Virus record (IMG/VR): IMGVR_UViG_3300022752_000274
Span: 1 to 30,165 of that record
Source of the DNA: a virus
Length of the DNA stretch: 30,165 nucleotides
Strand: one strand, 5' to 3'
A program made the translations under genes and the position numbers. A model generated the notes under the pieces. The model was not told the DNA's origin. It searched no databases and was given only the letters and a program-made list of their open reading frames with translations. Shown here in pieces: positions 1-18,908 of this stretch. Within the stretch, counting starts at the first letter, position 1, and every line of letters starts with the position of its first letter.

Positions 1-78
1 AAGGCGAAGGCGATATGGTACCCGAAGCAGGAGCGGATCTCTCATATGTCGATGAAGTACGAAAGCGATGCAGAATAA
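1..78 (+). CDS. 3' end of an unidentified gene (truncated by window edge)
   Basis: Frame 1 is open from the first base to a TAA at 76-78 and gives 25 residues rich in Lys and aromatic residues (it includes IWYPKQERISHMSMKY). The ATG of the next gene lies inside its last codons (68), an overlap typical of this genome, so it is probably a real coding end. I do not recognise the family. If the sequence is circular, the frame continues without interruption from the right end, where a GTG at 30151 leads in-frame into base 1. Its position just before a DNA-modification glycosyltransferase makes a modification partner possible, but nothing in the residues shows it. Confidence 0.5.
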   Translation, partial: KAKAIWYPKQERISHMSMKYESDAE

Positions 79-958
79 GCATCCGATCTATATCGTCTCA
101 AAGGGGAGATGGGATTCTCGCCTGACTTCGATATGCCTTTCACGCATGAAGGTCAATCACTTCATCGTGGTCGAGGAGCAGGAGTACGAGCAGTACCGCT
201 CAACCCTTGAGCCCTATGCAACGCTGCTGATCCTTGATAAGAAGTATCAGGAGCAGTACGAAACTTGCGACGAGTTAGGGCTCACGAAGAGTGTCGGTCC
301 GGGAGCTGCACGAAACTTTGCATGGGATCACTCAATCGCTCAGGGTGCATTGATGCATTGGGTGATGGACGACAATATCCGCCACTTCTATCGGTTCAAC
401 CGAAACCTAACCGTGCCCGTCCTTGATGGTGCTGCGTTTGCAGCGATGGAAGACTTTGCAGAGAGATATGAGAACGTCGGTATGGCGGGCCCGCAATACG
501 AGATGTTCGTAGCACGCCGTCAGGTTCATCCTCCCTTCGTGCTCAATACGCGAATATATTCCTGCAACTTGATCCGCAATGACGTGCCGTATCGATGGCG
601 CGGGAGATACAACGAGGATACGGATCTCTCGCTCAGGATGCTCAAGGACGGATGGTGCACGGTGCAGTTCAACGCTTTCCTGCAGAAGAAAGTCGGCACT
701 CAAACCGTGCGCGGCGGGAATACGGATGAGTTTTATCTGAAGGAGGGCACGCTTCCGAAGTCAAAGATGCTCGTGCGTATGCACCCTGACGTGGCGACTC
801 TTACGTGGAAGTTTAGTCGTTGGCATCATTACGTAGACTACACGCCCTTTCGCAAGAATAAACTCAGGAGAAAGAAGGACGTGATCGTGCCTGATAAGGT
901 GAACGACTACGGACTGAAGCTCATGAAACTTGACGGGAGTTTGATCAATGGGGACTAG
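68..958 (+). CDS. TET-associated glycosyltransferase (TAGT), DNA base modification
   Basis: The 296-residue protein closely matches the TAGT family found in phages. Members are predicted to add sugars to hydroxymethyl-pyrimidines made by TET/JBP dioxygenases in phage DNA. Visible hallmarks are the N-terminal IYIVSKGRWDSR strand-turn (about residues 7-18), the GPGAARNFAWDHS segment (about 77-89), HWVMDDNIRHFYR with the acidic metal/nucleotide-sugar motif (about 97-109), and the very conserved RIYSCNLIRNDVPYRWRGRYNEDTDLS block (about 162-188). Length is normal for the family. It overlaps the upstream gene by 11 bases and the small terminase gene by 11 bases, so it heads the packaging operon. 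No TET/JBP dioxygenase or cytosine methyltransferase lies in the window; they may be beyond the left edge or replaced by another base-modifying route. The family call is secure; the substrate in this phage is inference. Confidence 0.9.
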   Translation: MQNKHPIYIVSKGRWDSRLTSICLSRMKVNHFIVVEEQEYEQYRSTLEPYATLLILDKKYQEQYETCDELGLTKSVGPGAARNFAWDHSIAQGALMHWVMDDNIRHFYRFNRNLTVPVLDGAAFAAMEDFAERYENVGMAGPQYEMFVARRQVHPPFVLNTRIYSCNLIRNDVPYRWRGRYNEDTDLSLRMLKDGWCTVQFNAFLQKKVGTQTVRGGNTDEFYLKEGTLPKSKMLVRMHPDVATLTWKFSRWHHYVDYTPFRKNKLRRKKDVIVPDKVNDYGLKLMKLDGSLINGD

Positions 959-1433
959 GGGACCGCAGCCGAAGCCGACGAGGTTGAGACTTCTTGCAGG
1001 AGAGACTCGCCCCTCAGTGATCAACTATGCGGAGCCTATCCCGGGCGGCGGCCCGCTGACTGCTCCTGAAGACTTGCGCCCTGAGGCTCGCATCGTGTGG
1101 GATCGGGTAGTCGATTCGCTCGGTCAGACGGGCGTGCTCACTGCAGCCGACCGGGATATCTTGCGCCTTTATTGTGAAGCCTACGTGCGCTATGTTGAGG
1201 CGGAGTCTATGCTCGCCAAGACGGGCCCGCTTCTCAAGGGGCGGGGAGGAGAATACGTGAAGAGTCCGCTGCATCAGATCGTGCGGGATAACGCAGACTC
1301 GGTGAAGAAGTACGCCCGGGAGTTAGGGCTCACGCCCGCCGCCCGTGTTGGGCTGAAGGGAGAGATTGATGCCACGGCGAACTCGGCAACGGCGAAACTC
1401 GATCAGCTCATCCGAGCAGCCCGACGCGCCTAA
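948..1433 (+). CDS. terS: Terminase small subunit (P27 family)
   Basis: The 161-residue protein begins MGTRGPQPKPTRLRLLAGE, the basic opening typical of P27-type small terminases. The family motif region ELGLTPAARVGL follows near residues 125-136 (helix-turn-helix-like, binds the packaging site). The middle is helical, as expected for the oligomerising core. Small terminase recognises phage DNA and hands it to the large subunit for packaging into proheads. The ATG at 948 overlaps the end of the glycosyltransferase gene and follows a purine-rich GGGAG, so the start is well supported. Its 3' end overlaps the large terminase gene by about 65 bases in another frame, which implies translational coupling of the two subunits. 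Confidence 0.9.
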   Translation: MGTRGPQPKPTRLRLLAGETRPSVINYAEPIPGGGPLTAPEDLRPEARIVWDRVVDSLGQTGVLTAADRDILRLYCEAYVRYVEAESMLAKTGPLLKGRGGEYVKSPLHQIVRDNADSVKKYARELGLTPAARVGLKGEIDATANSATAKLDQLIRAARRA

Positions 1434-2892
1434 GTCGGGCCCGTCCACTGAAGGCGGAATCGTTGCAGAGTTTATTGAGTCCTTCTGCAGGTTGTCGAAA
1501 GGTGACGGTGCAGGGGCACTGATCTCACTTCGCCCGTGGCAGCGGGAGATCCTTGATGAGATCTTCACCATCAGAGAGGACGGCAAGCGAAAGCATCGGC
1601 GAGGGCTTCTTCTCATGCCCCGCAAGAACGGCAAGAGTTTGCTCGCCTCAGGGATCGCACTATATTCTCTCTTCACTGAGATCGGTGCAGAAGTTGCAGT
1701 CGTCGCAGGTGATCGTGCTCAAGCGCGGATTATCTTCCGAGAGTGCGCTCGCATGATCGAACTTGATCCTATTCTCTCTCGCAAGTTGCACGTCCTACGA
1801 GACGTGATTGAGTACCCTGAAACGGGGTCAGTGTTGAGGGTGTTGTCGGCTGATGCATCTCGTGCTGAGGGATATAACTTCTCAACGGTGATCTTTGATG
1901 AAGTGCACGTGCAGCCTGATGACCGCCTATGGTCTACCGTCAATCTCGGTTCGGGTGCTCGCAAGAATCCACTCGTGCTCGGGATCTCAACCTGCGGATC
2001 GAAGACTGATGCACGAGGTCAGGACTCTCTCGCCTATAAACTCTTTCAGTATGGGATGAGACTCAACGCAGGAGAGATCTCTGACGACTCCTTCTACTTC
2101 AGATACTTCACTGCTCCTGAGGATGTTGCGTGGGATTCTGACGAGGCGGCTCGTGTGGCGAATCCTGCATACGGCGACTTCCTTGATCCTGAAGACTTTG
2201 CAGCTGCGAGGAGATCAATCGTTCGGGAGGAGTACGAGACAAAGCGTCTCAACCGATGGACTAGCACTGCGACCTCATGGCTTCCGCCCGGATCATGGGA
2301 GCGGCTTGATGCACCGCGCAAGATTGAGAAAGGTGAGAAGGTCGTGCTCGCCTTCGACGGCTCCTATGATGGCGACTGCACCTCAGTCGTCGCTTGCACC
2401 CTTGACGGTCACCTTGAGCCCGTACTCAACTTTGAGAAGCCCATCGGGGATCATCAGTGGAAGGTCGATATCGGAGAGGTTGAGGCGGCAGTCCTTGAGA
2501 TCGCAAAGAAGTACGAGGTGCTCGAACTTGCAGCCGACCCGTTCAGGTGGGCACGATCCCTTGAGCTCTTTGAGAAGGAGGGACTTCCCGTCGTGCACTA
2601 CCCTCAATCCCCGTCCCGCATGGTTGCGGCATCGCAGAGATTCTACGAAGCCGTGACTCAGGATGAGATCAAGTGGGGAGGTGAGCCCGTGCTCACTGCA
2701 TCCCTCACCCGTCACCTCTCAAACGCAGCCGTCAAGGTGGATCGCTTCGGGCCCCGACTCGTGAAGGAGCACCGGGGATCTCCGAGAAAGATTGACTTAG
2801 CGGTGTGCGCCGTGATGGCACTTGATCGGGCACGCTATCATGCGAGCGAGGCGGAGAAACCGCCACGTAGCGTGGAGTTTGTGAGCCTATGA
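1366..2892 (+). CDS. terL: Terminase large subunit (ATPase/nuclease packaging motor)
   Basis: The 508-residue protein has the two-domain layout of phage large terminases. The adenine-binding RPWQ is near residues 57-60, Walker A is PRKNGKS (about 85-91), Walker B is STVIFDEVH (about 173-181), and LGISTCGS is a motif III-like segment (about 205). The C-terminal RNase H-like nuclease opens with VVLAFDGSYDGD (about 324-335) and continues through LAADPFRWA and KIDLAVCAVMALD. It pumps DNA into the prohead through the portal and cuts the concatemer. The earliest start is TTG at 1366; ATG at 1369 is the more ordinary choice and changes the protein by one residue. The low-complexity N-terminus encoded in the overlap with the small subunit may not all be translated; a start near 1463 would still keep the ATPase domain. 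Confidence 0.95.
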   Translation: MMPRRTRQRRNSISSSEQPDAPKSGPSTEGGIVAEFIESFCRLSKGDGAGALISLRPWQREILDEIFTIREDGKRKHRRGLLLMPRKNGKSLLASGIALYSLFTEIGAEVAVVAGDRAQARIIFRECARMIELDPILSRKLHVLRDVIEYPETGSVLRVLSADASRAEGYNFSTVIFDEVHVQPDDRLWSTVNLGSGARKNPLVLGISTCGSKTDARGQDSLAYKLFQYGMRLNAGEISDDSFYFRYFTAPEDVAWDSDEAARVANPAYGDFLDPEDFAAARRSIVREEYETKRLNRWTSTATSWLPPGSWERLDAPRKIEKGEKVVLAFDGSYDGDCTSVVACTLDGHLEPVLNFEKPIGDHQWKVDIGEVEAAVLEIAKKYEVLELAADPFRWARSLELFEKEGLPVVHYPQSPSRMVAASQRFYEAVTQDEIKWGGEPVLTASLTRHLSNAAVKVDRFGPRLVKEHRGSPRKIDLAVCAVMALDRARYHASEAEKPPRSVEFVSL

Positions 2893-3023
2893 TCTCAACG
2901 ATCCTCGAAGTAGCAGGGGTCATCATGCTACTCTTCGCCGCATATCTCGTGCACCCTGCAACGATCGTGGGGCTCATCGGGATCTCTCTCATCGCCATCG
3001 GATATTCGAGAGGTAAGAAGTGA
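2889..3023 (+). CDS. Small hydrophobic membrane protein between terminase and portal
   Basis: A 44-residue reading frame fills the gap between terminase and portal exactly. Its ATG at 2889 overlaps the terminase stop (ATGA), and its TGA overlaps the GTG start of the portal gene (GTGA). The protein has two hydrophobic stretches (about residues 4-19 and 25-38), separated by YLVHPAT and ending in the basic SRGKK, so it should be an integral inner-membrane hairpin. No family is recognised. Perfect stop/start overlap on both sides and the hydrophobic composition argue that it is genuine. Similar tiny membrane proteins occur elsewhere in the window (21650 and 22536). A role in superinfection exclusion or lysis timing is only a guess. 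Confidence 0.65.
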   Translation: MISTILEVAGVIMLLFAAYLVHPATIVGLIGISLIAIGYSRGKK

Positions 3024-4303
3024 GCATCATCCGCCGTATTCTTGGGAGTCAGGAGCAGCGCAACCTCACGGGGCTCGGGTTGATCCCGACCTCCTTTGAT
3101 CGGGTCCCGAACTACACGATCAGTCGAGTTGATGAGACTACGACGATGGGGCTCTCAACGGCTTGGGCTTGCGTGACCTTACTCGCTGACCTCACCTCAA
3201 CTTTCCCGATTGATGCGTACTACCGAGACAACGGGGTGCGTCTCCCTTATCGACCTGATGGTGCGAAGCCTTCTTGGATGACCACGCCTCAGCCCGGCGA
3301 GCCTACGGTCGGCATCAATCAGGTGATCGCTCAGCTTGTCGCCGCGATGTACCTCAACGGCAACGGGTACCTTTACACTCCCCGCGATCAAGACGGTGAA
3401 GTCCTTGAGATTCGTGCACTTGATCCGCGCCATGTCACGATTCGTCGTGACGGTCGGACGGTGCGATATGTCGTGCGGTCAATGGCGCAGACTGAAGGCA
3501 CTGAGTACGGGCCCGATGAGATCCTGCATATCCCATTGATTCGACCGCCCGGGCGAGATTATGGGATCAACCCTATTGAGGCTCTTCGGAATACAATCGG
3601 ACTCGGGCTCACTCTTGAGGATTACGCAGGAAGGTTTTTCGCTACGGGCTCAACGCCAACGGGAATCATTGAGACTCCTGATCCTTTGACTCCTGATCAG
3701 GCTCGATCCCTCAAGGAGGGATGGTTGCGCCATCACACGGGAGATAACGTGCATACGCCCGGGGTACTCTCAGGCGGGGCAACGTTCAAGCCTCTCTCCT
3801 TCCGCCCTGAGGATGCGCAGCTTCTCTCCTCCCGCGAGTTTACCGTCAATGAGATCGCACGTATCTTCCGCGTCCCTCCTGCACTTCTAGCAGTCACGAC
3901 TCCGGGGGCAATGTCGTACGCATCCGTTGAGCAGTTGTCGGACGACTTCGTGCGTTTCACCCTTCGCCCTCTTACTGAGAAGATTGAGCGTGCACTCTCA
4001 ACACTCCTCCCGCGCCCTGAAGCCTTCGTTCGGTTCACGATGGATTCACTCCTCAGGGGATCAACTCAGGCACGAGCCGAGGCGTATCGCACGGGACTCT
4101 CGGCGGGATATCTGACCGTCGCTGAGGTGCGCCGCCTAGAAGATCTCTCACCTATTGATGAGGAGAACGTGAACTCCTTGCGACAACCTCTCAACGAAGC
4201 CGATGCTGCACTCGCCTCAACTCGACAACGGGCCGAGGTCTATTCACTCTTGATCTCTTCAGGAGTTGATCCTGCAGAAGCGAAGAAGATCTCAGGTCTC
4301 TGA
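3020..4303 (+). CDS. Portal protein (HK97 family)
   Basis: The 427-residue protein matches HK97-type portal proteins. It starts MSIIRRILG, has the early TTMGLSTAWACVTLLADLTSTFP helix (about residues 41-63), the conserved YLNGNGYLYTPRD strand (about 111-123), LRNTIGLGLTLEDYAGRFFATGSTPTGI (about 188-215), and the helical EFTVNEIARIFRVPPALLA clip/stem element (about 273-291). The dodecameric portal forms the DNA entry and exit channel at one capsid vertex, docks terminase during packaging and later joins the head-tail connectors. Start is GTG at 3020, overlapping the upstream stop. Length and order (terminase, portal, protease, capsid) are standard. Confidence 0.93.
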   Translation: MSIIRRILGSQEQRNLTGLGLIPTSFDRVPNYTISRVDETTTMGLSTAWACVTLLADLTSTFPIDAYYRDNGVRLPYRPDGAKPSWMTTPQPGEPTVGINQVIAQLVAAMYLNGNGYLYTPRDQDGEVLEIRALDPRHVTIRRDGRTVRYVVRSMAQTEGTEYGPDEILHIPLIRPPGRDYGINPIEALRNTIGLGLTLEDYAGRFFATGSTPTGIIETPDPLTPDQARSLKEGWLRHHTGDNVHTPGVLSGGATFKPLSFRPEDAQLLSSREFTVNEIARIFRVPPALLAVTTPGAMSYASVEQLSDDFVRFTLRPLTEKIERALSTLLPRPEAFVRFTMDSLLRGSTQARAEAYRTGLSAGYLTVAEVRRLEDLSPIDEENVNSLRQPLNEADAALASTRQRAEVYSLLISSGVDPAEAKKISGL

Positions 4304-4569
4304 TGAGCATCCTCTCTCTGAACGCAACCTGCGGAACAACGGCGACGCTCATCTACGCTAACCGTTCAAGCGTTGCCGAGGTCTTTATTCACAATCACTC
4401 AGGCGGAGCGATTCAAGTTGGAGGAGCAGGGGTCACTACGGCTAACGGTTTGCAGATCAACAACAACTCAACCGCAACGGTTAGAATCTATGCAGGAGAT
4501 TCTCTTTATGCAGTGACTGCAAGTGGAACGGCTACGATTGATCTTCTTATCACTGCTCCGAATCCCTGA
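4303..4569 (+). CDS. Small beta-rich virion-associated protein (hypothetical)
   Basis: The 88-residue protein is dominated by Thr/Ala/Gly/Asn and alternating hydrophobic residues, predicting an all-beta fold. The pattern (an early TTATLIYANR strand, then VGGAGVTTANGLQI, then a GDSLYAVTASGTATIDLLI end) resembles small phage beta-sandwich domains seen near virion genes. No enzymatic residues are evident. It lies between portal and prohead protease with ATGA overlaps on both sides, so it is cotranslated with head genes. A capsid decoration, head-fibre or portal-associated accessory protein is the likeliest role; that is inference from fold type and neighbourhood. Confidence 0.7.
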   Translation: MSILSLNATCGTTATLIYANRSSVAEVFIHNHSGGAIQVGGAGVTTANGLQINNNSTATVRIYAGDSLYAVTASGTATIDLLITAPNP

Positions 4570-5948
4570 TGCCGTACGATCTTGAGAAAGACTTTGACGG
4601 CTGCGATTATGCAGTCGTGAAGGTCTCACCTGACGGCACGAAAGAGATCGTCCCCGGGGGATGCCATCCTGCAGAAGAGTTTGATGAGGCTGCAGGTCAT
4701 CTCGCTGCACTTCAGGCAGCCGAGCAGGAGGAAGATCGTGCAGTCAATCCTGACGGATACGAGCCTACTCAGGCGATGCGAGAAGAAGCCGATCGTGGTC
4801 TTGAGTGGCGGAGAGAGTTTGGGCGCGGGGGCACGCTCGTAGGAGTTGCACGGGCCCGTGATATCTCCTCAGGCAAGAGACTCCCGATCGATACGGTCAG
4901 GCGGATGCACTCCTACTTCGCACGTCACGAAGTTGATAAAGAGGGTCAGGGATTCAGTCAGGGTGAGGACGGATACCCTTCTGCAGGTCGGATCGCATGG
5001 GCGTTGTGGGGAGGCGACGCGGGTATGACGTGGGCAGCCGCTATCATCAAAGAAGCCTCCGATGATTCGGAGAGAAGTGAAGGGGAGACTATGGGCATCG
5101 AGTTTCGTAAGGCATCAGCGGAGTTGCGTGCAGTCGGTGAAGACGGCTATACCTTTGAGGGTATGGCTGCACTTTATGACTCCCCATCAGGTGAGGGAAC
5201 CGTCCCTGAAGTGATCAAGCCCGGAGCCTTCTCCCGATCCCTTGCCGCTGCATCCCGTGGTGAGTGGGACGTGCGTGCATACGCTGATCACAATCCTGAG
5301 AAGCTTCTCGGCACCACGAAGACGGGCACCCTCGAACTAGAAGATACGCAGGAGGGATTGCGGGCCCGTATTCGCCTCAATCCTGAGGTGAGTTATCATC
5401 GAGATCTTGCAGAGATTGTTCGCACGATGGGGCGATCGCTCGGGATGTCGTTCGGCTTCTACTCAACAAAGGCGAACCGAGTGAACTCAGAAGGAGTCCG
5501 TGAACTCAGGGACGTGAAACTCGTTGAGGTCTCAGCCCTTACGGGGCATCAGCCCTACTACCCCGGGACTCTTTCCCTTGTCGCCGTGCGATCACTTTCT
5601 GACGAGACGGGGGTCGGAGCTGAAGATCTCAGGGATGCGGTCTCAGCCCTGCTCGCGGGTGAGATTGATGAGGAGAAGGCTTCTCTTCTTCTGCGTGCCA
5701 TGTCGAAGACGGTCACAATCTCAACGACCGTTGAGATTGAGGAGGAGTCAGGTGAGGATCATCCTGAGGAGCCTACTCAGCCAATGCCTGAGGAGCCGAT
5801 GCCTGAGGAAGTCCCGGGCGGAGTCATTGACGGGCCCGACGAACTTCAGGAAGAGTCCGCACGAAAGACTGAGTGCAGCTGCGTTGCAGGTGTACCACGG
5901 TCAGTGCGGGAGAAGCAACTCGCACTCGCTCGGCTCGCGCTAAGGTAA
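4569..5948 (+). CDS. HK97-type prohead maturation protease with N-terminal accessory domain and acidic tail
   Basis: Three parts can be seen in this 459-residue protein. Residues about 64-160 form a domain common in phage head proteins, with RGLEWRREFGRGG, RRMHSYFARHEVDK and PSAGRIAWALWGGDAG. Residues about 175-335 are the S78-like prohead protease, with catalytic His at 241 (AYADHNPEKLLG) and Ser at 294 (SLGMSFGF). The C-terminus (about 375-440) is very acidic and proline-rich, scaffold-like, and ends in a basic Cys-containing segment. The protease cleaves itself, the scaffold and the capsid N-terminus during head maturation. An in-frame ATG at 5091 (residue 175) is preceded by AGGGGAG at 5081-5087 and could yield the protease alone. 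No separate scaffold gene is seen, so the acidic tail and the capsid N-terminus probably supply that function. Confidence 0.88.
   Translation: MPYDLEKDFDGCDYAVVKVSPDGTKEIVPGGCHPAEEFDEAAGHLAALQAAEQEEDRAVNPDGYEPTQAMREEADRGLEWRREFGRGGTLVGVARARDISSGKRLPIDTVRRMHSYFARHEVDKEGQGFSQGEDGYPSAGRIAWALWGGDAGMTWAAAIIKEASDDSERSEGETMGIEFRKASAELRAVGEDGYTFEGMAALYDSPSGEGTVPEVIKPGAFSRSLAAASRGEWDVRAYADHNPEKLLGTTKTGTLELEDTQEGLRARIRLNPEVSYHRDLAEIVRTMGRSLGMSFGFYSTKANRVNSEGVRELRDVKLVEVSALTGHQPYYPGTLSLVAVRSLSDETGVGAEDLRDAVSALLAGEIDEEKASLLLRAMSKTVTISTTVEIEEESGEDHPEEPTQPMPEEPMPEEVPGGVIDGPDELQEESARKTECSCVAGVPRSVREKQLALARLALR
5081..5093 (+). promoter_or_regulatory. Possible internal ribosome-binding site and ATG for a shorter protease
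   Basis: AGGGGAG at 5081-5087 sits three bases before an in-frame ATG at 5091 inside the prohead protease gene. Starting here would give a 285-residue protein beginning exactly at the protease domain. The spacing is a little short, so use of this site is uncertain. Confidence 0.35.
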
Positions 5949-5988
5949 ACGCACCTGAACGCTTAGGGCGTATCCGCTGAGGGCGAAA

Positions 5989-6010
5989 GCACCGCCGGAT
6001 CGCACCGCCG
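5989..6010 (+). repeat. 9-bp direct repeat in the leader before the capsid gene
   Basis: GCACCGCCG occurs at 5989-5997 and again at 6002-6010, four bases apart, in the 107-base gap between protease and major capsid genes. The rest of the gap holds an A-rich run (from about 6030) and the AAGGAG ribosome-binding site of the capsid gene. I see no convincing -35/-10 pair. It may be a leader element affecting capsid expression, or chance in GC-rich DNA. Confidence 0.3.
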
Positions 6011-6055
6011 AGATGGTGATCAATCAATCAAAAAAAGAAAGTAAGGAGATACACG

Positions 6056-7228
6056 ATGTCTGAACTTATCAATAAGTTGCACGACTCATATCGCCGCGAC
6101 TTTGAGGCTGCGAAGGCTCTTGTTGAGCGCGCCGCCGATGAGAAGCGTGAGATGAGTGCCGAAGAGGAAGTCTCGTACGCGAAGGCTTCTGAGGCGATGG
6201 CTTCTAAGCTTGCGAAGATTGATGACCTGCAGAAGGGTGAGGAGCGCAACGCTCGTCTCGCCACTCTGACCGGGGATCTTGAGATCGCTGCTCCTAAGAA
6301 GGGCGACACTGAGGCGGATCTTCTCCGTGCAGTGCTCAAGGGTGAAACTCGTTCGGCTAACTTCGAGATGCGAGCACTTGCAACGGCGACGGCGACAACG
6401 CCCGTCACCTTTGCAGACTTCATCGTCGAGCAGTTGGTCGCGGGCAACCCGATCTATGCAGGTGCGACAAAGGTTCGCACTGCAGACGCTCGCAATATCA
6501 CCGTGCCCGTCGCTGCGGGCACTGCTCCTGCAGCCGCTTTCGTTTCGCAGGGCGGGACGATCACCGCAGCCGATCCGGTCTACACGAGCGTGACTCTTGG
6601 CGCAAACGCGCTTGCGAGCCTGACTCTTGTTAGCCGTCAGTTGGTTGATTCGGCGGGCTTCGATATCGCCGCAAACGTTGGCGTACTCGCGGGCCGTCAG
6701 ATCGCTTACGTTGCGGGTAGCGCATGCGCACTTGGTACGGGCACGGTTCAGCCTAACGGCTTCGTGACTGCACTGAACACTGCAGGTGCTCTCTCAACCG
6801 CTGCGGGCTCGGCGTTCTTTGATGCTGACGATCTCATCACGGCGTACTATGCACTCGCTGCAGAGTATCGTCGCCCTGAGACGGCATGGCACGTATCGAA
6901 CACTGCAATCGCAAAGATCCGCAAGCTGAAGACGTCGCAGGGTGAGTATCTCCTGCAGCCTTCACTCGCGGTCGGTCAGCCTGAGACTATTCTTGGGCAG
7001 GTTGTTCGTGAGAACGTGCATATGGCGGCAGTGGGCTCCGCGTCGAAGTCGGTCGTGCTCATCCATGAGCCTTCCTACTTCATCCGTGAGCAGGGATCAG
7101 TCGAAGTCGCTACCTCGGCGGAGCGTTACTTCGAGCTGAACTCAATCGGTATCCGATCGATCTACAACTTCGACGGGCAGTTGCCTGATACGAAGGCGGG
7201 TCGCATCCTCGTCTCGGCTAACTCCTAG
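6056..7228 (+). CDS. Major capsid protein (HK97 fold)
   Basis: The 390-residue protein has the layout of HK97-like capsid proteins made with a removable N-terminus. A charged, coiled-coil-like delta region spans about residues 1-75 (KLHDSYRRDFEAAKALVERAADEKRE). A cleavage-prone linker around 95-105 leads into the capsid core, with NPIYAGATKVRTADARNITVPV, a LVSRQLVDSAG spine-helix segment, and the C-terminal RYFELNSIGIRSIYNFDGQL strand. Many copies form the icosahedral shell, and the adjacent protease would remove the delta region. AAGGAG precedes the ATG at good spacing. The gene is isolated by an upstream leader and a downstream terminator, as expected for the most highly expressed protein. 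Confidence 0.92.
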   Translation: MSELINKLHDSYRRDFEAAKALVERAADEKREMSAEEEVSYAKASEAMASKLAKIDDLQKGEERNARLATLTGDLEIAAPKKGDTEADLLRAVLKGETRSANFEMRALATATATTPVTFADFIVEQLVAGNPIYAGATKVRTADARNITVPVAAGTAPAAAFVSQGGTITAADPVYTSVTLGANALASLTLVSRQLVDSAGFDIAANVGVLAGRQIAYVAGSACALGTGTVQPNGFVTALNTAGALSTAAGSAFFDADDLITAYYALAAEYRRPETAWHVSNTAIAKIRKLKTSQGEYLLQPSLAVGQPETILGQVVRENVHMAAVGSASKSVVLIHEPSYFIREQGSVEVATSAERYFELNSIGIRSIYNFDGQLPDTKAGRILVSANS

Positions 7229-7237
7229 ACGATCAGG

Positions 7238-7253
7238 GTCTAGTCCGCTAGAC
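7238..7253 (+). other. Short perfect hairpin after the capsid stop
   Basis: GTCTAG (7238-7243) and CTAGAC (7248-7253) pair perfectly around a TCCG loop, just downstream of the capsid stop codon and upstream of the terminator. It may protect or process the capsid mRNA 3' end. Confidence 0.4.
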
Positions 7254-7258
7254 TTTGG

Positions 7259-7304
7259 GCACGGGCCCGCTCGGGGAATACCCCGGGCGGGCTTCGTGCT
7301 TTTT
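7259..7304 (+). terminator. Rho-independent terminator after the major capsid gene
   Basis: A long GC-rich hairpin is visible: GCACG pairs with CGTGC, GCCCGC with GCGGGC, and CGGGG with CCCCG around a short AAT-A loop. A run of five T follows at 7300-7304. One copy of the CGGGCCCG palindrome forms part of the left arm. It separates the capsid gene from the sugar cassette, so downstream late genes need read-through or another promoter. Confidence 0.85.
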
Positions 7305-7327
7305 ATGAGAAGGAGTGGGAGGGATTG

Positions 7328-8569
7328 ATGCCGAAGATCTTGTGGTCATCAAACGCGCCGTGGTGTGGCACGGGATACGGAGCCGTGACGAAGGAGATCG
7401 TGCCGCGCCTCAAGGCTCAGGGGCATGAGGTGGCGATCGCTGCAAACTACGGGCTCGGTGGTAGCACAATCACGTGGGAAGATATCCCCGTCTTTCCTTC
7501 AGGGATTGACGGATATTCTAACGATGTCTTACCCGGTCAGATTGATTCTTGGATCAAGGGCGATGATCAAGGTTTCGCCGTGATTCTCTTCGATGCGTGG
7601 GTCTATGCACGAAACGCAGCTCTTGATCAGTTTCCGATTCTTGCGTATGCGCCCGTTGATCACTCTCCTCTTCCTCAGGGAGTCTCTGAGTTTTTTAGGC
7701 GACCGGGGCTGAAGATCCCTCTCGCCATGAGTCAGCATGGTCGAGGTGAGTTTATAAAGGCGGGCTTCAGTGAGGATCGAGTGCTATATGCACCGCACTC
7801 AATCTCACGAAAGATCTTCACTCCTGAGGGATCAGATATGCGCGAGAAGATGCTCGTGCCTCAGGACGCTCACCTCACCATGATCAACGCAGCGAATAAG
7901 GGCAATACGCCCGTGCGTAAGTGTTGGGGCGAGATGTTGAGTGCATGGTCGGCCTTTGCGCATCGGCATCCTGAGGCGTATCTTTATATTCACTCAGACG
8001 CTTCAGGCATGGCGAACGGCGTTCCGCTTGATCGACTTCTTGAGGCGGTCAAGGCTCCGACTGATCGGGTCAGGGTAGTGCCGCAGTACGAGTACCGTAT
8101 GGGGATTGACTCTGAGACGGTCGCAGCTCTTTATCGGTCAGCCGATGTCTTACTTGCAACTTCACGAGGCGAGGGCTTCGGAATCCCCGTAATCGAGGCG
8201 CAATCGTGCGGAGTCTCAGCGATTGTGACGGAGTGGACGGCTCAACCTGAACTGATCGGCAGCGGGTGGATCATCCCGGGGCAGGTTGAGTACGATCACC
8301 TGCAGGGTGGATGGTGGAAAGTGCCCAACGTTGAGGCGATTATCTCAGCCCTTGAGGAGTCCTTCGCACTGAAGGGCGATGCAGTCAGGTCAGGTCAGGA
8401 AAGAGAGAAGGCGATCATCAAGGCTCAGGGCTACGAGACGGATCATGTCTTCAGGGAGTATTGGCAGCCCGCCCTCACTCGCTTCGCTGAGATCATCAGG
8501 GAGAGTAAGACGGGCCCGCTCAACCCTAACCGTGAGCAGCGACGGGCAGCCCTCAGGAGGGTCAAGTGA
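7328..8569 (+). CDS. Glycosyltransferase, GT4-like (GT-B fold)
   Basis: The 413-residue protein has two Rossmann-like halves. The N-terminal glycine-rich turn WCGTGYGAVT (about residues 12-21) is typical of the acceptor domain. The C-terminal donor-binding signature RGEGFGIPVIEAQSCG (about 280-295) contains the paired glutamates of retaining GT4/GT1 enzymes that bind a nucleotide-sugar. It should move a sugar from NDP-sugar to a virion protein, host cell-wall or DNA acceptor; location in the late operon favours a structural-protein target (inference). ATG at 7328 is preceded by GGAGTGGGAGG; a TTG one codon earlier is less likely. It is the first gene after the capsid terminator and is coupled to the next gene by a GTGA overlap. 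Confidence 0.85.
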   Translation: MPKILWSSNAPWCGTGYGAVTKEIVPRLKAQGHEVAIAANYGLGGSTITWEDIPVFPSGIDGYSNDVLPGQIDSWIKGDDQGFAVILFDAWVYARNAALDQFPILAYAPVDHSPLPQGVSEFFRRPGLKIPLAMSQHGRGEFIKAGFSEDRVLYAPHSISRKIFTPEGSDMREKMLVPQDAHLTMINAANKGNTPVRKCWGEMLSAWSAFAHRHPEAYLYIHSDASGMANGVPLDRLLEAVKAPTDRVRVVPQYEYRMGIDSETVAALYRSADVLLATSRGEGFGIPVIEAQSCGVSAIVTEWTAQPELIGSGWIIPGQVEYDHLQGGWWKVPNVEAIISALEESFALKGDAVRSGQEREKAIIKAQGYETDHVFREYWQPALTRFAEIIRESKTGPLNPNREQRRAALRRVK

Positions 8570-9105
8570 AAGACGTGACCTTCATTACGGGGACGATCCC
8601 CGGTCGTGAGCACCTGCTCGCTGAGGCGGTTGCATCGGTCAAGGCTCAGACGGTCACTCCTGCAGATCACTTGATCGCCGTTGATTATCAGCTCAGGGGA
8701 GGATGGCGACCGCGCAATATTCTCGCCTCCGCAGTTGAGACGAAGTGGACTCACGTTCTTGATGATGATGACGTGCTCAAGCCTGATCACCTTGAGAGGC
8801 TGCTCGCTCATGCAGACGGTGCCGATGTGGTCTACTCGCACTGCGAAGTGCTCGGGGATGCTCACTTCGATCTTTATAACCGACCCTTTGATGCAGGGCT
8901 TCTCCGAAGGATGTCGATCGTGAGTCATAACGCCTTGATCCGCACCGATCTTATTCTTGAGTTGGGCGGATGGGCGAACGAGAAGGGCTACGATTGGCGA
9001 CTTTGGATCAGGGCACTTGATACGGGCGCACGCTTTGTCTGCGTTCCTGAGAAAACGTGGAAGTATCGACTCAATGCCGATTGGCAGCATGAGTCCCGAC
9101 CATGA
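8566..9105 (+). CDS. Small glycosyltransferase, GT2-like (GT-A fold)
   Basis: The 179-residue protein opens with a beta strand and ITGTIPGREHLLAEAVASVKAQT, the nucleotide-binding start of GT2 enzymes. It carries the metal-binding acidic motif VLDDDDVLKPDHLERLL (about residues 64-80) and a second-half SHNALIRTDLILELGGW segment (about 122-138), as in family 2 transferases. At 179 residues it is shorter than typical GT2 catalytic domains, so only the core is present. The start is GTG at 8566, overlapping the previous stop. With its two neighbours it forms a three-gene sugar cassette. The acceptor is unknown. Confidence 0.8.
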   Translation: MKDVTFITGTIPGREHLLAEAVASVKAQTVTPADHLIAVDYQLRGGWRPRNILASAVETKWTHVLDDDDVLKPDHLERLLAHADGADVVYSHCEVLGDAHFDLYNRPFDAGLLRRMSIVSHNALIRTDLILELGGWANEKGYDWRLWIRALDTGARFVCVPEKTWKYRLNADWQHESRP

Positions 9106-9803
9106 AGCCTAGAATCCTGATCCTCTCTGCAGGGAAGGCTTCACGTCTCGGTGGAATCAATAAGCTCACGCTGACTGCAGGAGGTCTCCCCGTCCTTGAG
9201 TGGCACCGCCGCTTCGCTGATGGGCATCAGGTGGCGATCGTGACCACGCCTCAGGATGCAGGGCTTATCGCCCTCAGTGCACCGTGGGCTGATCGGGTAG
9301 TCGGGCACGGGGACTTTGACGGGCCCGTGGGGGCACTTGCCGCCTATCTCAGGGCGTATCCTGATCCTGAGCCTTTGGTCGTGCTCTTTGCAGATACCCT
9401 TCTCCCTCCTCAGCCCCTGAGCCCCCGCGACTTTGTAGGCGTTGCCGCCGCCCCTGCTCGCAGGTGGGATCTACCTGAGCTCTCAGGATTCTTCGTCCGG
9501 GGCGTTCCGCAGGTAGAAGTCTGCGTCGGGGTCTACGGGTTCAGTGATCACCCTGCACTGATCAAGGGGATCACTCAAGCCTTCAGCGATGCCGCCTTCG
9601 ACGGGGAGAAGGAGGTTGGATTCTTCAGGCTGCTCAATGCGTATCACTCCGAGTCAGGTCTTTACCATGTAAGAGTCAGGGGATGGCACGACTGCGGTGA
9701 TCAAGAGTCGCGCGCTAAAGTCCCTGCGTGGGAGTCAGTGATCCTAGAAGATCCGCAAGCCGATAGACTTAGCGGGCGCATCCACGCAGGATTCACCCGC
9801 TAA
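9102..9803 (+). CDS. Sugar nucleotidyltransferase-like protein
   Basis: The 233-residue protein has the NTP-transferase signature LSAGKASRLGGINK (about residues 8-21), a variant of LxAGxGxRxxxxxxK that binds NTP. A central VVLFADTLLPP corresponds to the acidic metal site, and GWHDCGDQES (about 194-203) parallels the WxDxGTxE ending of sugar-1-phosphate nucleotidyltransferases. It probably makes an activated NDP-sugar for the two glycosyltransferases just upstream. ATG at 9102 overlaps their stop. The first motif deviates from consensus (Lys-Ala-Ser in place of Gly-rich residues), so substrate and activity are uncertain. Confidence 0.78.
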   Translation: MKPRILILSAGKASRLGGINKLTLTAGGLPVLEWHRRFADGHQVAIVTTPQDAGLIALSAPWADRVVGHGDFDGPVGALAAYLRAYPDPEPLVVLFADTLLPPQPLSPRDFVGVAAAPARRWDLPELSGFFVRGVPQVEVCVGVYGFSDHPALIKGITQAFSDAAFDGEKEVGFFRLLNAYHSESGLYHVRVRGWHDCGDQESRAKVPAWESVILEDPQADRLSGRIHAGFTR

Positions 9804-9804
9804 G
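9768..9804 (+). other. 9-bp perfect inverted repeat at the end of the sugar cassette
   Basis: CTTAGCGGG (9768-9776) and CCCGCTAAG (9796-9804) are exact reverse complements around a 19-base loop, and the cassette's stop codon lies in the right arm. There is no T-run, so it is either a tailless terminator, an RNA-processing hairpin or a protein site. Its position mirrors the terminator at the other end of the cassette. Confidence 0.5.
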
Positions 9805-9836
9805 ATCCTGACGGGCCCGAAGTAGAAGGAGTCATC

Positions 9837-10442
9837 ATGGCAATCGTAAACGGATACACGACTGCAGCCGATGTGCAGAACGCCCTCGGTCTTGGAACTG
9901 CAGTGCTCACCCCTGATACGGCTGAGATTGAGGCGGCAGTCTCTGCAGTCTCTCGGCAGGTAGACGACTATACGGGCCGCTTCTTCTATAGCACCGGGGG
10001 CACGGTGCTCTTTACTGCGAACGACTATCTCTTCTTGCCGATTGGCGATTGGTCGGCAGTCTCAAGCGTGATGATCGACGAAAACAATACGGGCACTCCT
10101 ACGGTCGCCCTCAACGGCACGACGGACTATCGCCTCACCTACAATCAAGATATGCGCGGTGCCCCGTTTACCGCGATTCAGATCACCTCCTTCGCTGCGA
10201 ACTCTCTCCCGTTTGGGGTCACTGAAGGAGTCAAGGTAGTCGGCACCCGTGGATGGTCTGCAGTGCCTGAGCCCGTGAAGGCTGCAACACTCCTGCAGTC
10301 AGTCAGAATCTTTGCTCGTCGGCAGTCTCCCTACGGCGTGGCAGGATCTCCTGAGGGCGGAATCGTGCGACTTCTTGCTCGCCTTGATCCTGACGTGGAA
10401 GCGATGCTGCGACCGTATCGAGTCCCTCGTGAGGCGGTCTGA
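9837..10442 (+). CDS. Head-tail connector protein (gp6-like)
   Basis: The 201-residue protein resembles HK97 gp6-like connectors: an N-terminal YTTAADVQNALG helix, then AEIEAAVSAVSRQVDDYTGRFF (about residues 30-51), a beta-rich middle, and a C-terminal helical part with VPEPVKAATLLQSVRIFARR followed by the ending LDPDVEAMLRPYR. These proteins form a ring under the portal and seal the packaged head before tail attachment. AGAAGGAG precedes the ATG. It is the first gene after the sugar cassette and overlaps the next by one base. Confidence 0.85.
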   Translation: MAIVNGYTTAADVQNALGLGTAVLTPDTAEIEAAVSAVSRQVDDYTGRFFYSTGGTVLFTANDYLFLPIGDWSAVSSVMIDENNTGTPTVALNGTTDYRLTYNQDMRGAPFTAIQITSFAANSLPFGVTEGVKVVGTRGWSAVPEPVKAATLLQSVRIFARRQSPYGVAGSPEGGIVRLLARLDPDVEAMLRPYRVPREAV

Positions 10443-10882
10443 TGCCTTTCTCAGATACCGTCATCCTTGATGCAATCGCAGCTCATCTTCGGGCCCGAAC
10501 TGCACCGACCGGGGAGACGATCAAGGCAGTCTTCGCCTACCCTCCTGACGGGATCGCAACCTCTCCGATCATCACTCTTTACCCTCAGGGAGACTCAATC
10601 AGGTACGGGGCTGCGAATCGGCAGGTGACTCTCACCGTAGAAGCGGTCCTTTATCTTCCTCAGGTGGACTACTCCCGCCAACTCGCCCGCGTTGCAGCCT
10701 TCCGCACGTGGATGCGCGATGCCTTCATTGACGGGGTGCTACTAGACTCCGCAGACGGAGTATCTCAAGCCTCAGTGACGAGCACCTCAATCGGCTCGAG
10801 TGAGTATGGGGATGCCCCGTGGATCACCGTTTCCGCTACGATAGAAGTCACCGGGATCGAAGCAATCGCCCCTAGCGCATAA
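10442..10882 (+). CDS. Tail terminator / head-tail joining-like protein
   Basis: The 146-residue protein has an alpha/beta pattern typical of tail-terminator or neck proteins. It has an opening helix FSDTVILDAIAAHLRART, a central strand pair with RQVTLTVEAVLYLP, a helix DYSRQLARVAAFRTWMRDAF, and a closing strand WITVSATIEVTGIE. Its place just before the major tail protein, where such proteins are encoded, supports the role of capping the tail tube and joining it to the head. ATG overlaps the preceding TGA. Confidence 0.65.
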   Translation: MPFSDTVILDAIAAHLRARTAPTGETIKAVFAYPPDGIATSPIITLYPQGDSIRYGAANRQVTLTVEAVLYLPQVDYSRQLARVAAFRTWMRDAFIDGVLLDSADGVSQASVTSTSIGSSEYGDAPWITVSATIEVTGIEAIAPSA

Positions 10883-10893
10883 GGAGATAAAAA

Positions 10894-11922
10894 GTGCCGC
10901 TTGCAAACTCAGGGAATATTCTCTTTACCACTCTCGTCGGTAAGGCCGAAGGCACCGCAGGTACTTCTGCGAACTTCTCCTCAGGCGGGCGTAAGTTTCT
11001 TGTTGAGCCTACGGGACTCATCAGCATCGGCAAGACGTGGGATCTAGGCGAGGAGCGATCAGTCGCTTATCGCAACTCAATCGTCGCAACTACCGCAACC
11101 TTGATCTCGGTTGAGCCGACTCTCTCAGTCTCAGTCCCTGCAGTAAGCGTGGACGAACTTGCAGTGTGGCTCGGGATGGCGAACGGTGGAACTGCATCAG
11201 GGACTGCAGCACCGTACTCATGGTCTTTCGATTGGGCGATGGGAACTGCAGCGAACTCGCCCCGGTCTTTCTCCTTTGTATCGATGGATGCGTTCGGTGG
11301 CACTGCAGGTGGCGGGAACGCCTATCTTCTGAACTATTGTCTTCCAACTTCACTCACGATCGCCGCCGCCCGGGATGGTCTCACCTCTCTCTCGGCTGAA
11401 CTCTTTGCGCAGAATATTGCGGAGAGTACGGCAACGGTTGCAGCTGCGACCGCGATCCCAACTTCGCGCTTCATGAGTGGTCGCCTATGGACTGCAGCCG
11501 TGGGAACGGCTCTCGGAACTGCGACAACCTACACGAGCACAAACTACGTGCTCGACTTCTCACTGCAGGTTGATACGGGTATCGAGCGTCAGGCTTATCT
11601 CGCAGGAACGGAAGTCTTCTCAACTCATGCTGAGTCGGGCCGCTTCGGTGGTGAACTTTCCCTGACGGTTCAGTCAAACGCTGCAGCCTCTTCTACGTGG
11701 TATCAGTCACTCGGCTCGCAGAAGTTTGTGAAGTTGGCGTGGACTGATGGCACGTATTCAGCCGCGATCTATCTCTCAATGATCGTCTCGGATGTGCAGC
11801 CGATCGCCGGGGAAGAAGACGGACTGACCACGATGTCGGTGACGGGGACTCTCGCCCTTGATCCTACGACTCAGAAGGTCATCATCGTGACGGTCACGAA
11901 TACAATCAACGCGATCCCGTAA
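10894..11922 (+). CDS. Major tail (tube) protein
   Basis: The 342-residue protein is Ser/Thr/Ala/Gly-rich and beta-dominated, like siphovirus tail-tube proteins. The N-terminus runs LFTTLVGKAEGTAGT, followed by a long strand series with EPTLSVSVPAVSVDELAVWLGM and a Cys-containing YLLNYCLPTSLTI. A final strand-rich part, TMSVTGTLALDP, resembles tube beta-barrel closure. Rings of this protein stack to form the flexible tail. GTG at 10894 has GGAGATAAAA ahead of it. Its position before the frameshifted chaperones and tape measure is diagnostic. Confidence 0.82.
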   Translation: MPLANSGNILFTTLVGKAEGTAGTSANFSSGGRKFLVEPTGLISIGKTWDLGEERSVAYRNSIVATTATLISVEPTLSVSVPAVSVDELAVWLGMANGGTASGTAAPYSWSFDWAMGTAANSPRSFSFVSMDAFGGTAGGGNAYLLNYCLPTSLTIAAARDGLTSLSAELFAQNIAESTATVAAATAIPTSRFMSGRLWTAAVGTALGTATTYTSTNYVLDFSLQVDTGIERQAYLAGTEVFSTHAESGRFGGELSLTVQSNAAASSTWYQSLGSQKFVKLAWTDGTYSAAIYLSMIVSDVQPIAGEEDGLTTMSVTGTLALDPTTQKVIIVTVTNTINAIP

Positions 11923-11953
11923 GTTCGGGTCCCGCACAATAGAAGGAGGAGTC

Positions 11954-12244
11954 ATGACTGAGATTCGCGCCGACCGTAAGGTCAAGATCGATCTGACGGG
12001 CCCGTTTGAGGGATGGTGGGCTGAGATGAAGTTGCACGTGCCGTTCAGGATGGCAGTGCAGCTTGAGTCGGACTCACCGCAGGATCGTGTTGATGCGATC
12101 AAGTCCCTGATCGTGGCGCACAACTTCAGGGAAGAGGTAGGGGTCGAGAAAGTCCTTGATGATCCTACGCTCGCCCCGGATGATGCGATCGATCAACTGC
12201 TCACAAAGTGGGGGGCACTAAAGGGAGCACTCCCTTCCGCATAA
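11954..12244 (+). CDS. Tail assembly chaperone, short form (gpG-like)
   Basis: The 96-residue mostly helical, charged protein lies between tail tube and tape measure, the invariant place for tail assembly chaperones. AGAAGGAGGAG precedes its ATG. Near its 3' end the reading frame meets a slippery A-AAG-GGA at 12220-12226 in correct phase, and the -1 frame is open to 12438. The short form is made by non-shifting ribosomes; with the long form it coats the tape measure protein before tube polymerisation, as lambda gpG/gpGT do. Sequence similarity of such proteins is generally low, so the call rests on position, length and frameshift structure. Confidence 0.85.
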   Translation: MTEIRADRKVKIDLTGPFEGWWAEMKLHVPFRMAVQLESDSPQDRVDAIKSLIVAHNFREEVGVEKVLDDPTLAPDDAIDQLLTKWGALKGALPSA

Positions 12245-12438
12245 GGCGGGCGGCTCAACGGATCGCCCTCGGGCATCCCAACGTGAAGCCTCCCGCAGAA
12301 GTGCTCGCAGTCATACTCGCAGAGAAGTTTGGCGTGATGCCGTCCGTTATCCTTGATCAGGATCTGAGTGACGTGCTCAAGTGGACGACCATCCTCTCAG
12401 ATCTCAATACGCAGAAGGGCGGAAAGTATGGCGGCTAA
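12208..12438 (+). CDS. Tail assembly chaperone, frameshift extension (T part of gpGT-like fusion)
   Basis: This -1 frame overlaps the end of the short chaperone and runs to TAA at 12436-12438. It has no good independent ribosome-binding site (the nearest GTG at 12208 follows ACAAA), so it is best read as the C-terminal part of a fusion. Joined at 12226 the product is about 161 residues (91 from the first frame and 70 from this one). The extension contains AEVLAVILAEKFGVMPSVIL and a helical ending, as in T-domains that bind the tail tube. The next gene starts inside its end. Confidence 0.8.
   Translation: MGGTKGSTPFRIRRAAQRIALGHPNVKPPAEVLAVILAEKFGVMPSVILDQDLSDVLKWTTILSDLNTQKGGKYGG
12220..12226 (+). 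promoter_or_regulatory. Programmed -1 ribosomal frameshift slippery site
   Basis: AAAGGGA is read as CTA-AAG-GGA in the zero frame, exactly the X-XXY-YYZ phase needed for tandem tRNA slippage by -1. A run of six G at 12210-12215 lies ten bases upstream and is a second possible slip point. The downstream frame is open in the -1 register, as expected. Confidence 0.75.
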
Positions 12439-13018
12439 GTCGCGGGTTGATATTGAGATCAGTAAGAAGACAATCTCAGAGATCTCTTCACTGAGCCTTG
12501 CACTCGCTGCAGGGTTCGATGAGAAGAGACTTGATAAGGCACTGCAAGCCGCCTCAAACGCAACTGCGAAGGCGATGGTGAAGCCCGTCAAGGCTGCAGC
12601 TCCGACGAGAAAGTCACGATCAGACGGCGGCAGTGGCAACCGAATCAGACGGGCAGTGTGGGCTCAACCCGTGATGAGGGATAAGCCCGGAGCCTACGTG
12701 GGGATTCGCCCGGGGCGTACTCGTGAAGATATCAAGGGTGCGTACTACCGATGGATGGTCACCTCAGGGACTTCACGAGTGCCCTATGAGATCCGCCCTA
12801 AGCGTGGGAAGGTCTTGCGCTTCTTCGGGTCAGACGGCACTCCCGTCTTCGCAAAGTCAGTGACTCGTAAGGCAGCCGTCCCGGGTCGCCCCTTCGTGAC
12901 TGATGCAGTAAGTAAAAACGCTCAACTTGCACTCGACACTTTCAGCATGACTCTGACCGCTATTATTCAGAACGGCATCCCGAAGAAGGGGCGCATCAAA
13001 CTCCCGAAGCTGAAGTGA
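12428..13018 (+). CDS. HK97-gp10-like minor tail/completion protein
   Basis: Starting at ATG 12428 (after AAGGGCGGAAAG) the protein has 196 residues. It contains the pattern of the HK97-gp10 family: an N-terminal helical segment with DKALQAASNATAKAMVKPVK, then a basic Ser/Gly-rich stretch, AYVGIRPGR, YYRWMVTSGTSRVPYEIRPKRGKVLRFF and PGRPFVTDAVSKN. In that family the protein acts in head-tail joining or tail completion. Here it follows the chaperones and precedes the tape measure, later than usual. The longer upstream extension of the frame overlaps the chaperone and lacks a ribosome-binding site, so I reject it. Confidence 0.75.
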   Translation: MAAKSRVDIEISKKTISEISSLSLALAAGFDEKRLDKALQAASNATAKAMVKPVKAAAPTRKSRSDGGSGNRIRRAVWAQPVMRDKPGAYVGIRPGRTREDIKGAYYRWMVTSGTSRVPYEIRPKRGKVLRFFGSDGTPVFAKSVTRKAAVPGRPFVTDAVSKNAQLALDTFSMTLTAIIQNGIPKKGRIKLPKLK

Positions 13019-13029
13019 GGTCATAAGTC

Positions 13030-14478
13030 ATGGCGGGTGCTAGTGCTCAGGTCACGTTTGCTTTCTTGGCGAAAGATGCCGCCTCAAAGACGGTACGTGG
13101 ACTCACGAAGACTATCGGCGTACTCGGGAAAGTCTCCTCAAGTGTGGGCAGCAAACTAAAGACGGGCCTCCTCGGAATCGGAGCAGGGCTCATCGGGCTC
13201 GCTGCAGGTGCAACCGCTGCAGCCGTTGCCTTTGCAAAGGGGGCGATTGAGGATGAGAAGGCGAACGCTCGACTAGTCGCAGTGCTAAAGCAGCGCAAAC
13301 TTGCAACCGTTGAGAATCTTGCCGCCGTTGATGCACTGATCACAAAGGGTGCCGACCTAGCCTTCACCGATGATCAGATCCGCGAGAGTCTCGGAACTGC
13401 GACGCAGTTTACGAAGAACTTTACTGAGGCTCAGAAGATCCTCTCTGCAGCTCAGGATCTTGCACGCGCTAAGAATATCGATCTCGGAACTGCTACTACC
13501 ATCGTCGGGAAGGCGTTCGTAGGGAATACGACTGCACTTCAGAAGATGGGAGTGCAACTGAAGAAGGGTGCAAAGGGGACGGAAGCCCTTGCAGGTATCA
13601 ACGCAAAGTTCGGAGGCTCGGCTCAAGCGTATTCTGAGACGACTGCAGGATCAATGGAATCACTGCAGATCACGCTCTCTGAGATGGGAGAAGAGATCGG
13701 GTATACCTTGATCCCGATTGTGCATGATCTCGTGAAGGCGTTCCGAGATAACGTCCTCCCGGTGCTGCGCACCGTTGTCGATGCAGTCAAGGGATTCATC
13801 ACCGAGAATAAGGGGATGATCTCAGGCGTGCTCAAGGGAGTAGGTGCACTTGCAGGGAAGTTGGCACCGATCCTCCTCACGATTGGGAAGTTTCTCTTTG
13901 AGAAGGTGATCCCCGGAATCGTCGGCTTCGTCAATAAACTGACCGCCCCGGGCGGTGTGATTGATTCAGTCATGAAGGTAGTCGGGCCGATTATTGCGAA
14001 CCTGATCCCCGTCTTCGGGCAGATCTTTGATGCAGTGGGAAAGACGGGTGCAAAGATTGGCGAACTCGTTGGGATTCTATGGGGCGATGGGACGGGCCCG
14101 CTTGCGACCGCAGTCGGGGCGATCGGCAACTTGCTCGGGTTCGTGGGGAAGATTCTCGGGAATATCATCGGTGCTATTGGCACGGCGATTGATGCAGTGA
14201 TCAGCATCGGGAAGGCGATCATGGACTCACCGATCGGCTTCATCATCAAGGCAGTTGCAGGAGTAGTCTCAGGAGTAGCAGGTGCAGTCGGCAACGCAGT
14301 CGGCTTCACGACAACCTCTCAGCCCGTTGCACCGGGGACGGGCTCAAGTGCAAACCCGATGAGTGCCCGCTATGGTGCTCCTCCCGTGAACGTCTACGTC
14401 GGAGCTGATCGTGTTGCGGATGCAGTCATCCCCGTAGTTGCGAAGCAGGTCACGACAACTCCTCGCGGATCGAGATAA
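13030..14478 (+). CDS. Tape measure protein (short)
   Basis: The 482-residue protein has tape-measure features: Ala/Gly/Lys-rich N-terminus, a hydrophobic helix around residues 45-70 (LLGIGAGLIGLAAGATAAAVAF), long helical middle segments (EAQKILSAAQDLARAKNIDL, AVDAVKGFITENKGM), then repeated glycine-rich hydrophobic stretches (about 265-440), and an Asn/Pro-rich tail. It sets tail length and is expelled into the host envelope during DNA injection. It follows the frameshifted chaperones directly. At about 1.5 angstrom per residue it implies a tail of roughly 70 nm, short for a siphovirus. Start ATG at 13030 follows GAGGTCATAAG, a modest ribosome-binding site. Confidence 0.88.
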   Translation: MAGASAQVTFAFLAKDAASKTVRGLTKTIGVLGKVSSSVGSKLKTGLLGIGAGLIGLAAGATAAAVAFAKGAIEDEKANARLVAVLKQRKLATVENLAAVDALITKGADLAFTDDQIRESLGTATQFTKNFTEAQKILSAAQDLARAKNIDLGTATTIVGKAFVGNTTALQKMGVQLKKGAKGTEALAGINAKFGGSAQAYSETTAGSMESLQITLSEMGEEIGYTLIPIVHDLVKAFRDNVLPVLRTVVDAVKGFITENKGMISGVLKGVGALAGKLAPILLTIGKFLFEKVIPGIVGFVNKLTAPGGVIDSVMKVVGPIIANLIPVFGQIFDAVGKTGAKIGELVGILWGDGTGPLATAVGAIGNLLGFVGKILGNIIGAIGTAIDAVISIGKAIMDSPIGFIIKAVAGVVSGVAGAVGNAVGFTTTSQPVAPGTGSSANPMSARYGAPPVNVYVGADRVADAVIPVVAKQVTTTPRGSR

Positions 14479-14481
14479 CTC

Positions 14482-15903: not shown

Positions 15904-15909
15904 TAGACG

Positions 15910-17331: not shown

Positions 17332-17342
17332 GGTGAAGAGTC

Positions 17343-17462: not shown

Positions 17463-17464
17463 CG

Positions 17465-18837: not shown

Positions 18838-18871
18838 CGGAGATGCTGCAGAAGTCGTAGACTGCGAAGAT

Positions 18872-18886: not shown

Positions 18887-18908
18887 GGAGGTTATAGGAG
18901 GAGCAGTC

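Follow-up and report, generated by a model that had tools for sequence, protein, structure and literature searches.

A TAGT gene at the left end of the genome

The stretch of DNA analysed here (the window) is an entire IMG/VR record of 30,165 bp that is classed as linear. Its left end carries the following features, WMP being a domain that is named and defined in the next section.

1-78, + strand: 3' end of a ParB-like gene, coding for the last part of its WMP domain (KAKAIWYP...); stop codon at 76-78, the final 11 nt being shared with the start of TAGT
68-958, + strand: TAGT-family GT-A glycosyltransferase, ATG start, 296 aa; Pfam PF20691, PHROG 842
368-376, + strand: DDN motif (D101-D102-N103) of the TAGT, acidic and DxD-type, from an alignment of 34 relatives
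948-1433, + strand: terminase small subunit (TerS), Pfam PF05119; its first 11 nt are shared with the end of TAGT
1366-2892, + strand: terminase large subunit (TerL), PHROG 9 and Pfam TerL; the true start probably lies downstream of the TTG given here

The protein encoded at 68-958 was matched by the PF20691 TAGT profile at 156.2 bits (curated cut-off 27.5; E 1.4e-45), with the full profile covered by residues 6-217 of the 296-aa protein, and by PHROG 842, 'beta-glucosyl-HMC-alpha-glucosyltransferase' (E 5e-49). The 'TET-associated' of TAGT is a family name. In the alignment of 34 TAGT relatives, the DDN motif and about 50 more positions were invariant; from general knowledge of the fold, we take this motif to be the GT-A metal and nucleotide-sugar site. 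Sequence searches detected no solved relative of this TAGT, and the GT-A fold was found on a model of the homologue from Aeromonas phage Aeh1, which is 57-58% identical to the window protein. The Aeh1 protein, a fusion of domain and TAGT, was modelled with a pLDDT of 84 and a pTM of 0.84, and Foldseek matched it in the PDB to the GT-A enzymes GnT I, LARGE1 and mannosyl-3-phosphoglycerate synthase; TAGTs were among its matches to viral structure models. The profile matches and the homologue model together uphold a preliminary description of this DNA, which had assigned the gene to the TAGT glycosyltransferases and proposed a structure comparison; that comparison placed the homologue among GT-A enzymes and viral TAGTs.

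The window TerL was used as a query to gather close relatives with and without TAGT. Window positions 1-78 translate to KAKAIWYPKQERISHMSMKYESDAE followed by a stop, and the full ParB-like gene, whose 214-aa product has a ParB-like N-terminus, is present in two of these relatives: L082 (130-774), found by the TerL search and 96.4% identical at the DNA level across window 1-5767, and L084 (8069-8713), whose TerL and TAGT are 96% and 98% identical to the window proteins. The L084 contig (30,916 bp, 90-94% DNA-identical) derives from a close relative and represents a different genome. It runs in the order window 13431-30165, then 706 bp absent from the window, then window 1-13424; being a circular permutation of the window, it covers the full genome save the variable stretch 15936-17464, and just 706 bp would be absent from the window judging by this alignment. 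Positions 15936-17464, the sole large stretch that could not be aligned to the L084 contig, lie in the tail region and likely hold host-recognition genes. It had been suggested earlier that the left-edge gene might itself encode a TET or methyltransferase, or that such a gene lay beyond the edge. The first idea fails because positions 1-78 are the end of the ParB-like gene that is whole in L082 and L084, and the second because the L084 contig spans the full circle with no TET, C5-methyltransferase or hydroxymethylase, so that neither TET nor methyltransferase is hidden beyond the left edge.

A partner domain encoded upstream of TAGT

The C-terminal ~65 residues of the ParB-like protein form the domain that we name WMP, with the consensus W-x-x-M-P-E-F-x-Q ... 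I-x-V-x-F ... D-x-x-x-F-x-x-L ... Q-x-x-T-x-K-T-K-S-I-W-F/Y-P. Standalone copies matched no PHROG and no Pfam or NCBIfam family above the curated cut-off (L060 gave sub-threshold Pfam noise only), the best E of the WMP profile against PDB sequences was 0.14, and no description of the domain was found in the open-access library searched. WMP often makes up nearly the whole of a protein of ~80 aa and is elsewhere preceded by a ParB domain; in L032 and L081 it is preceded by a second TAGT-like domain plus ParB.

A first scan covered the first 80 TAGT relatives listed, together with the TerL relatives having a TAGT; the nearest relatives, L082-L084, were missing from the TAGT matches listed despite carrying TAGT. 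Among the matches listed, a WMP homologue was encoded upstream of TAGT in all 85 loci with readable upstream sequence. In a wider survey, 280 TAGT sequences from viral and phage collections were clustered at 90% identity into 172 groups, whose median pairwise identity was 55%. WMP was present in 166 of the 167 readable clusters: it adjoined TAGT in 135, was fused to it in 19, and was separated from it by a gap or an intervening gene in 12, the lone cluster without it being the divergent L123. After WMP, the neighbour seen most often within 4 kb was the terminase (TerL), found in just 28 of the 172 clusters, and shared ancestry of whole loci therefore fails to explain the link between WMP and TAGT. 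When WMP alone was used as the query (best 80 of 267 matches), TAGT adjoined or shortly followed it in 76 of 77 new loci, and the single exception runs off a contig edge. Independent bacterial genomes (GTDB) carried WMP in 43 of 43 readable TAGT loci, the other five being truncated or fragments. WMP is fused to the TAGT N-terminus in Aeh1, 65, Kuja, PTm1, POP12 and two vibriophages, and L371 contains a natural fusion of ParB, WMP and TAGT in one open reading frame. Linkage and fusion, both read from sequence, point to WMP as an obligate, effectively always present partner of the window's TAGT subfamily.

The head of the ParB-like protein is a separate matter. The ParB-WMP protein was modelled with a pLDDT of 82 and its PDB matches were ParB, Noc, PadC, sulfiredoxin and SerK, with a Foldseek E of 3.5e-6 for the match of the head to ParB. 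A GHxR-type motif is present in the head, with G64 invariant and R67 conserved in 90% or more of 37 relatives, although the window-type protein did not reach the threshold of the Pfam ParB_N profile. By predicted fold and motif, the head is a member of the ParB/sulfiredoxin superfamily. A short WMP-only protein with no ParB head was encoded in 34 of the 85 loci (~40%; among the matches listed), so the head is not required, and the simpler proposition that the partner is 'a ParB protein' was discarded. WMP itself was poorly modelled in both predictions, its helix formed and its strands mostly not; no fold is therefore claimed for it, and its docking onto TAGT stays inferred.

Several loci depart from the simple arrangement. 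Tandem WMP copies adjoin or are fused to TAGT in L241 (1114-2616), L193 and L199-L201. Between the WMP gene and TAGT lie an FkbM methyltransferase in L060 (949-1629), a class I methyltransferase in L069 (3130-3930) and a nucleotide-sugar epimerase-type gene in L126 (2263-3252), the products of which may decorate or supply the sugar. In L123 (123-1755), the divergent TAGT (PF20691, 4e-33) has no WMP, and the upstream ParB head carries another C-terminal domain (PHROG 620), which may represent a second partner type.

Source and nature of the acceptor

The earlier statement that the window is devoid of TET and C5-methyltransferase genes proved correct, as the profiles Tet_JBP (PF12851) and PF00145 gave no match. 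No TET/JBP dioxygenase was found in the window or the L084 contig by a search that detects mycobacteriophage Nigel, the positive control, and L236; no C5-cytosine methyltransferase was found in either (controls positive in 10 of 14); and no thymidylate-synthase-family protein (PF00303, which includes dCMP hydroxymethylase) was found in the 30,916-bp L084 contig. Likewise, no alpha- or beta-glucosyltransferase (alpha-/beta-GT) appeared among the family matches listed for window genes (47 genes; 25 of 37 shown). Searches of the window and the L084 contig thus recognised no acceptor-making enzyme for TAGT. The preliminary description had also offered a DUF1599/Nmad1-like gene near 25945 as corroboration of a modified base. 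This support falls away, since no PF07659 match was obtained even at E <= 10 and the gene matches only PHROG 1485 (function unknown).

These searches bear on the classical pathway, whereby a host or co-infecting element would make 5-hydroxymethylcytosine or 5-hydroxymethyluracil in DNA and TAGT would add the sugar. The TAGT family is named after its TET link, the substrate of the T6 TAGT is glucosylated hydroxymethylcytosine (PMC13216743), and L236 encodes a TET 0.7 kb downstream of its domain-TAGT fusion. This TET gene is, however, overlapped by that of a second, translationally coupled glycosyltransferase, which resembles the T6 TAGT and not the window subfamily; from this one record, TET-coupled and domain-coupled TAGTs appear by sequence to be different subfamilies. 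Further evidence against supplied hydroxymethylation is that, of 100 TAGT records, 1 had a TET and 4 had a C5-methyltransferase; many of these records are fragmentary, so that absence is weak for each single one. Complete genomes agree: the T4-like Aeh1 and 65, and Kuja, have thymidylate synthase only, and a published table of phages having gene 42 omits Aeh1 and 65 (PMC2993671). A pyrimidine hydroxymethylase is annotated in PTm1. Taken with both sides of this evidence, the classical pathway is considered improbable for the window.

The T6 system is also one of the closest known precedents. Its TAGT matches PF20691 (35.8 bits), is of the GT-A fold class and serves phage DNA modification, as proposed for the window TAGT, but T6 differs in having a dCMP hydroxymethylase adjoining TAGT and an alpha-GT, and in having no WMP. 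The window-subfamily profile fails to detect the T6 TAGT, and hhalign of the 34-relative alignment against the single T6 sequence gave a probability of 4%.

The nature of the acceptor was approached through the genes that replace TAGT in relatives. Among the window's terminase relatives, 51 loci have a ParB head immediately before TerS; some of these loci are near-identical, so that the counts are not independent events. No enzyme was recognised after the head in 23 of them; in the others it is followed by an N6/N4 methyltransferase (10 loci), Mom (8), TAGT with WMP (9) or the divergent TAGT (1), and four more TAGT loci beyond these 51 are truncated or spaced. Nigel shows the order ParB-like gp1, Tet_JBP-matching gp2, TerS, TerL, and BLAST gave no significant similarity between its ParB-like protein and that of the window. 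The slot enzymes differ in chemistry but all act on DNA bases, which is the main argument for DNA as the TAGT acceptor. From this interchange we infer a DNA acceptor, and the DNA-modification role put forward earlier is judged likely.

The module might instead glycosylate RNA, or a protein of the virion or the host. Such a reading would accommodate the failure to recognise an enzyme making a DNA acceptor, the frequent location of TAGT near terminase and portal genes, and the presence of protein and polysaccharide glycosyltransferases among the closest solved folds. It does not sit well with a slot and ParB head held in common with N6/N4 methyltransferases and Mom, with the TET in the analogous slot of Nigel, or with the action of the T6 TAGT on DNA, and a non-DNA acceptor is accordingly thought unlikely.

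A sugar cassette lies between the capsid and head-tail genes, at window 7325-9803.

7325-8569: GT4 glycosyltransferase
8566-9105: GT2-like protein
9102-9803: MobA-like nucleotidyltransferase (NTP-transferase)

These genes were considered as suppliers of the window TAGT and rejected on their distribution. The cassette is present without TAGT in L090, L091, L093, L107 and L139, and TAGT is present without the cassette in L134-L136 and L002; it tracks capsid type and not TAGT, which suggests capsid glycosylation. The same distribution weighs against a T6-like role in which TAGT would extend a sugar set on DNA by another glycosyltransferase, as does the failure to recognise an alpha- or beta-GT in the window among the family matches listed. 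The T6 precedent (PMC13216743), the further glycosyltransferases at 7325-9105 and the two tandem TAGTs in L347 speak for this second-sugar role, which is nevertheless regarded as very unlikely.

A proposed ParB-WMP-TAGT module for DNA glycosylation

The product of the gene at 68-958 is probably the catalytic component of a module for DNA glycosylation made up of ParB head, WMP and TAGT, specified by a pair of overlapping genes immediately ahead of the terminase genes. In such a module, the ParB/sulfiredoxin-fold head would bind newly made phage DNA and use a nucleotide cofactor to select or clamp sites; WMP would dock on TAGT, tethering it to the head, or would form part of the acceptor site; and TAGT would use a nucleotide sugar as donor to glycosylate a base of the bound DNA. 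The acceptor group would be made by no TET, C5-methyltransferase or dCMP hydroxymethylase of the window's own phage, and the likely benefit would be that phage DNA awaiting packaging is shielded from nucleases. Counted against the module are the 23 relatives having a ParB head and no recognised modification enzyme. To our knowledge, no base modification has been measured for any member. A more speculative extension, which we regard as doubtful, is a self-contained system with no prior hydroxymethylation, in which a ParB-type switch and an adaptor domain would let a GT-A enzyme add sugar directly, and at selected positions, to a canonical base; such a system would be shared by many phages of aquatic habitats and by prophages from a wide range of bacterial phyla.

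Parts of this arrangement have counterparts elsewhere. Aeh1p093 (58% identical to the window TAGT) also has WMP, in a genome likewise without gene 42, but there WMP is fused to TAGT, no ParB head is present, and the genome is that of a 233-kb T4-like phage. DpdB, a ParB-superfamily protein, accompanies the DNA-modifying DpdA, which inserts 7-deazaguanine (PMC6392294); this pair resembles the window module in joining a ParB-superfamily protein to a base-modifying enzyme and, in CRB2, in its position at the genome start before the terminase, but DpdA is a transglycosylase that swaps the base, and neither a glycosyltransferase nor WMP is involved. Cassettes of ParB with N6/N4 methyltransferase, or with Mom, share the ParB head and the position upstream of TerS, and differ in chemistry and in having no WMP. 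Compared with the hypermodification cassette of TET, C5-methyltransferase and TAGT, the window and the L084 contig contain neither of the first two; compared with T-even glucosylation, PF00303 is missing from the L084 contig and alpha-/beta-GTs from the matches listed.

Solitary TAGTs as presumed DNA modifiers (PMC13216743, PMC8056088) and ParB partners of modifying enzymes (PMC6392294) have already been published. TAGT was reported without an alpha/beta-GT in 288 of 753 phage genomes, its function being left undefined (PMC13216743, 2026), and PMC8056088, citing Iyer et al. 2013, states that the Aeh1 glucosyl transferase 'presumably modifies DNA, unknown base', with ORF087c putatively corresponding to Aeh1p093. 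What the present analysis adds is an unannotated, effectively always-present domain as the candidate missing TAGT component, which makes reconstitution testable, and the tying of TAGT to a ParB-headed slot of exchanged DNA-modifying enzymes. A need for WMP may account for possible failures of TAGT when it is expressed by itself. Carriers in which a modified base could be sought directly are the isolates Aeh1, 65 and Kuja and cultivated bacteria such as Rhodovulum euryhalinum DSM 4868 and Chryseobacterium gambrini DSM 18014.

Three further observations were made on these loci. Nigel gp2 (L337, 776-1744) is annotated as a queuine tRNA-ribosyltransferase and matches Tet_JBP at 4e-6 with an HxD motif, the annotation likely being erroneous. 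In L127 (4402-5831), two Mom-like genes stand in tandem behind a single ParB head. Finally, window 28126-28803 encodes GP88 (PF17338, 183 bits), an unknown-function protein with the motif CPxAGxCxxxCYA, and a GP88 homologue lies between TAGT and TerS in L002 and L126.
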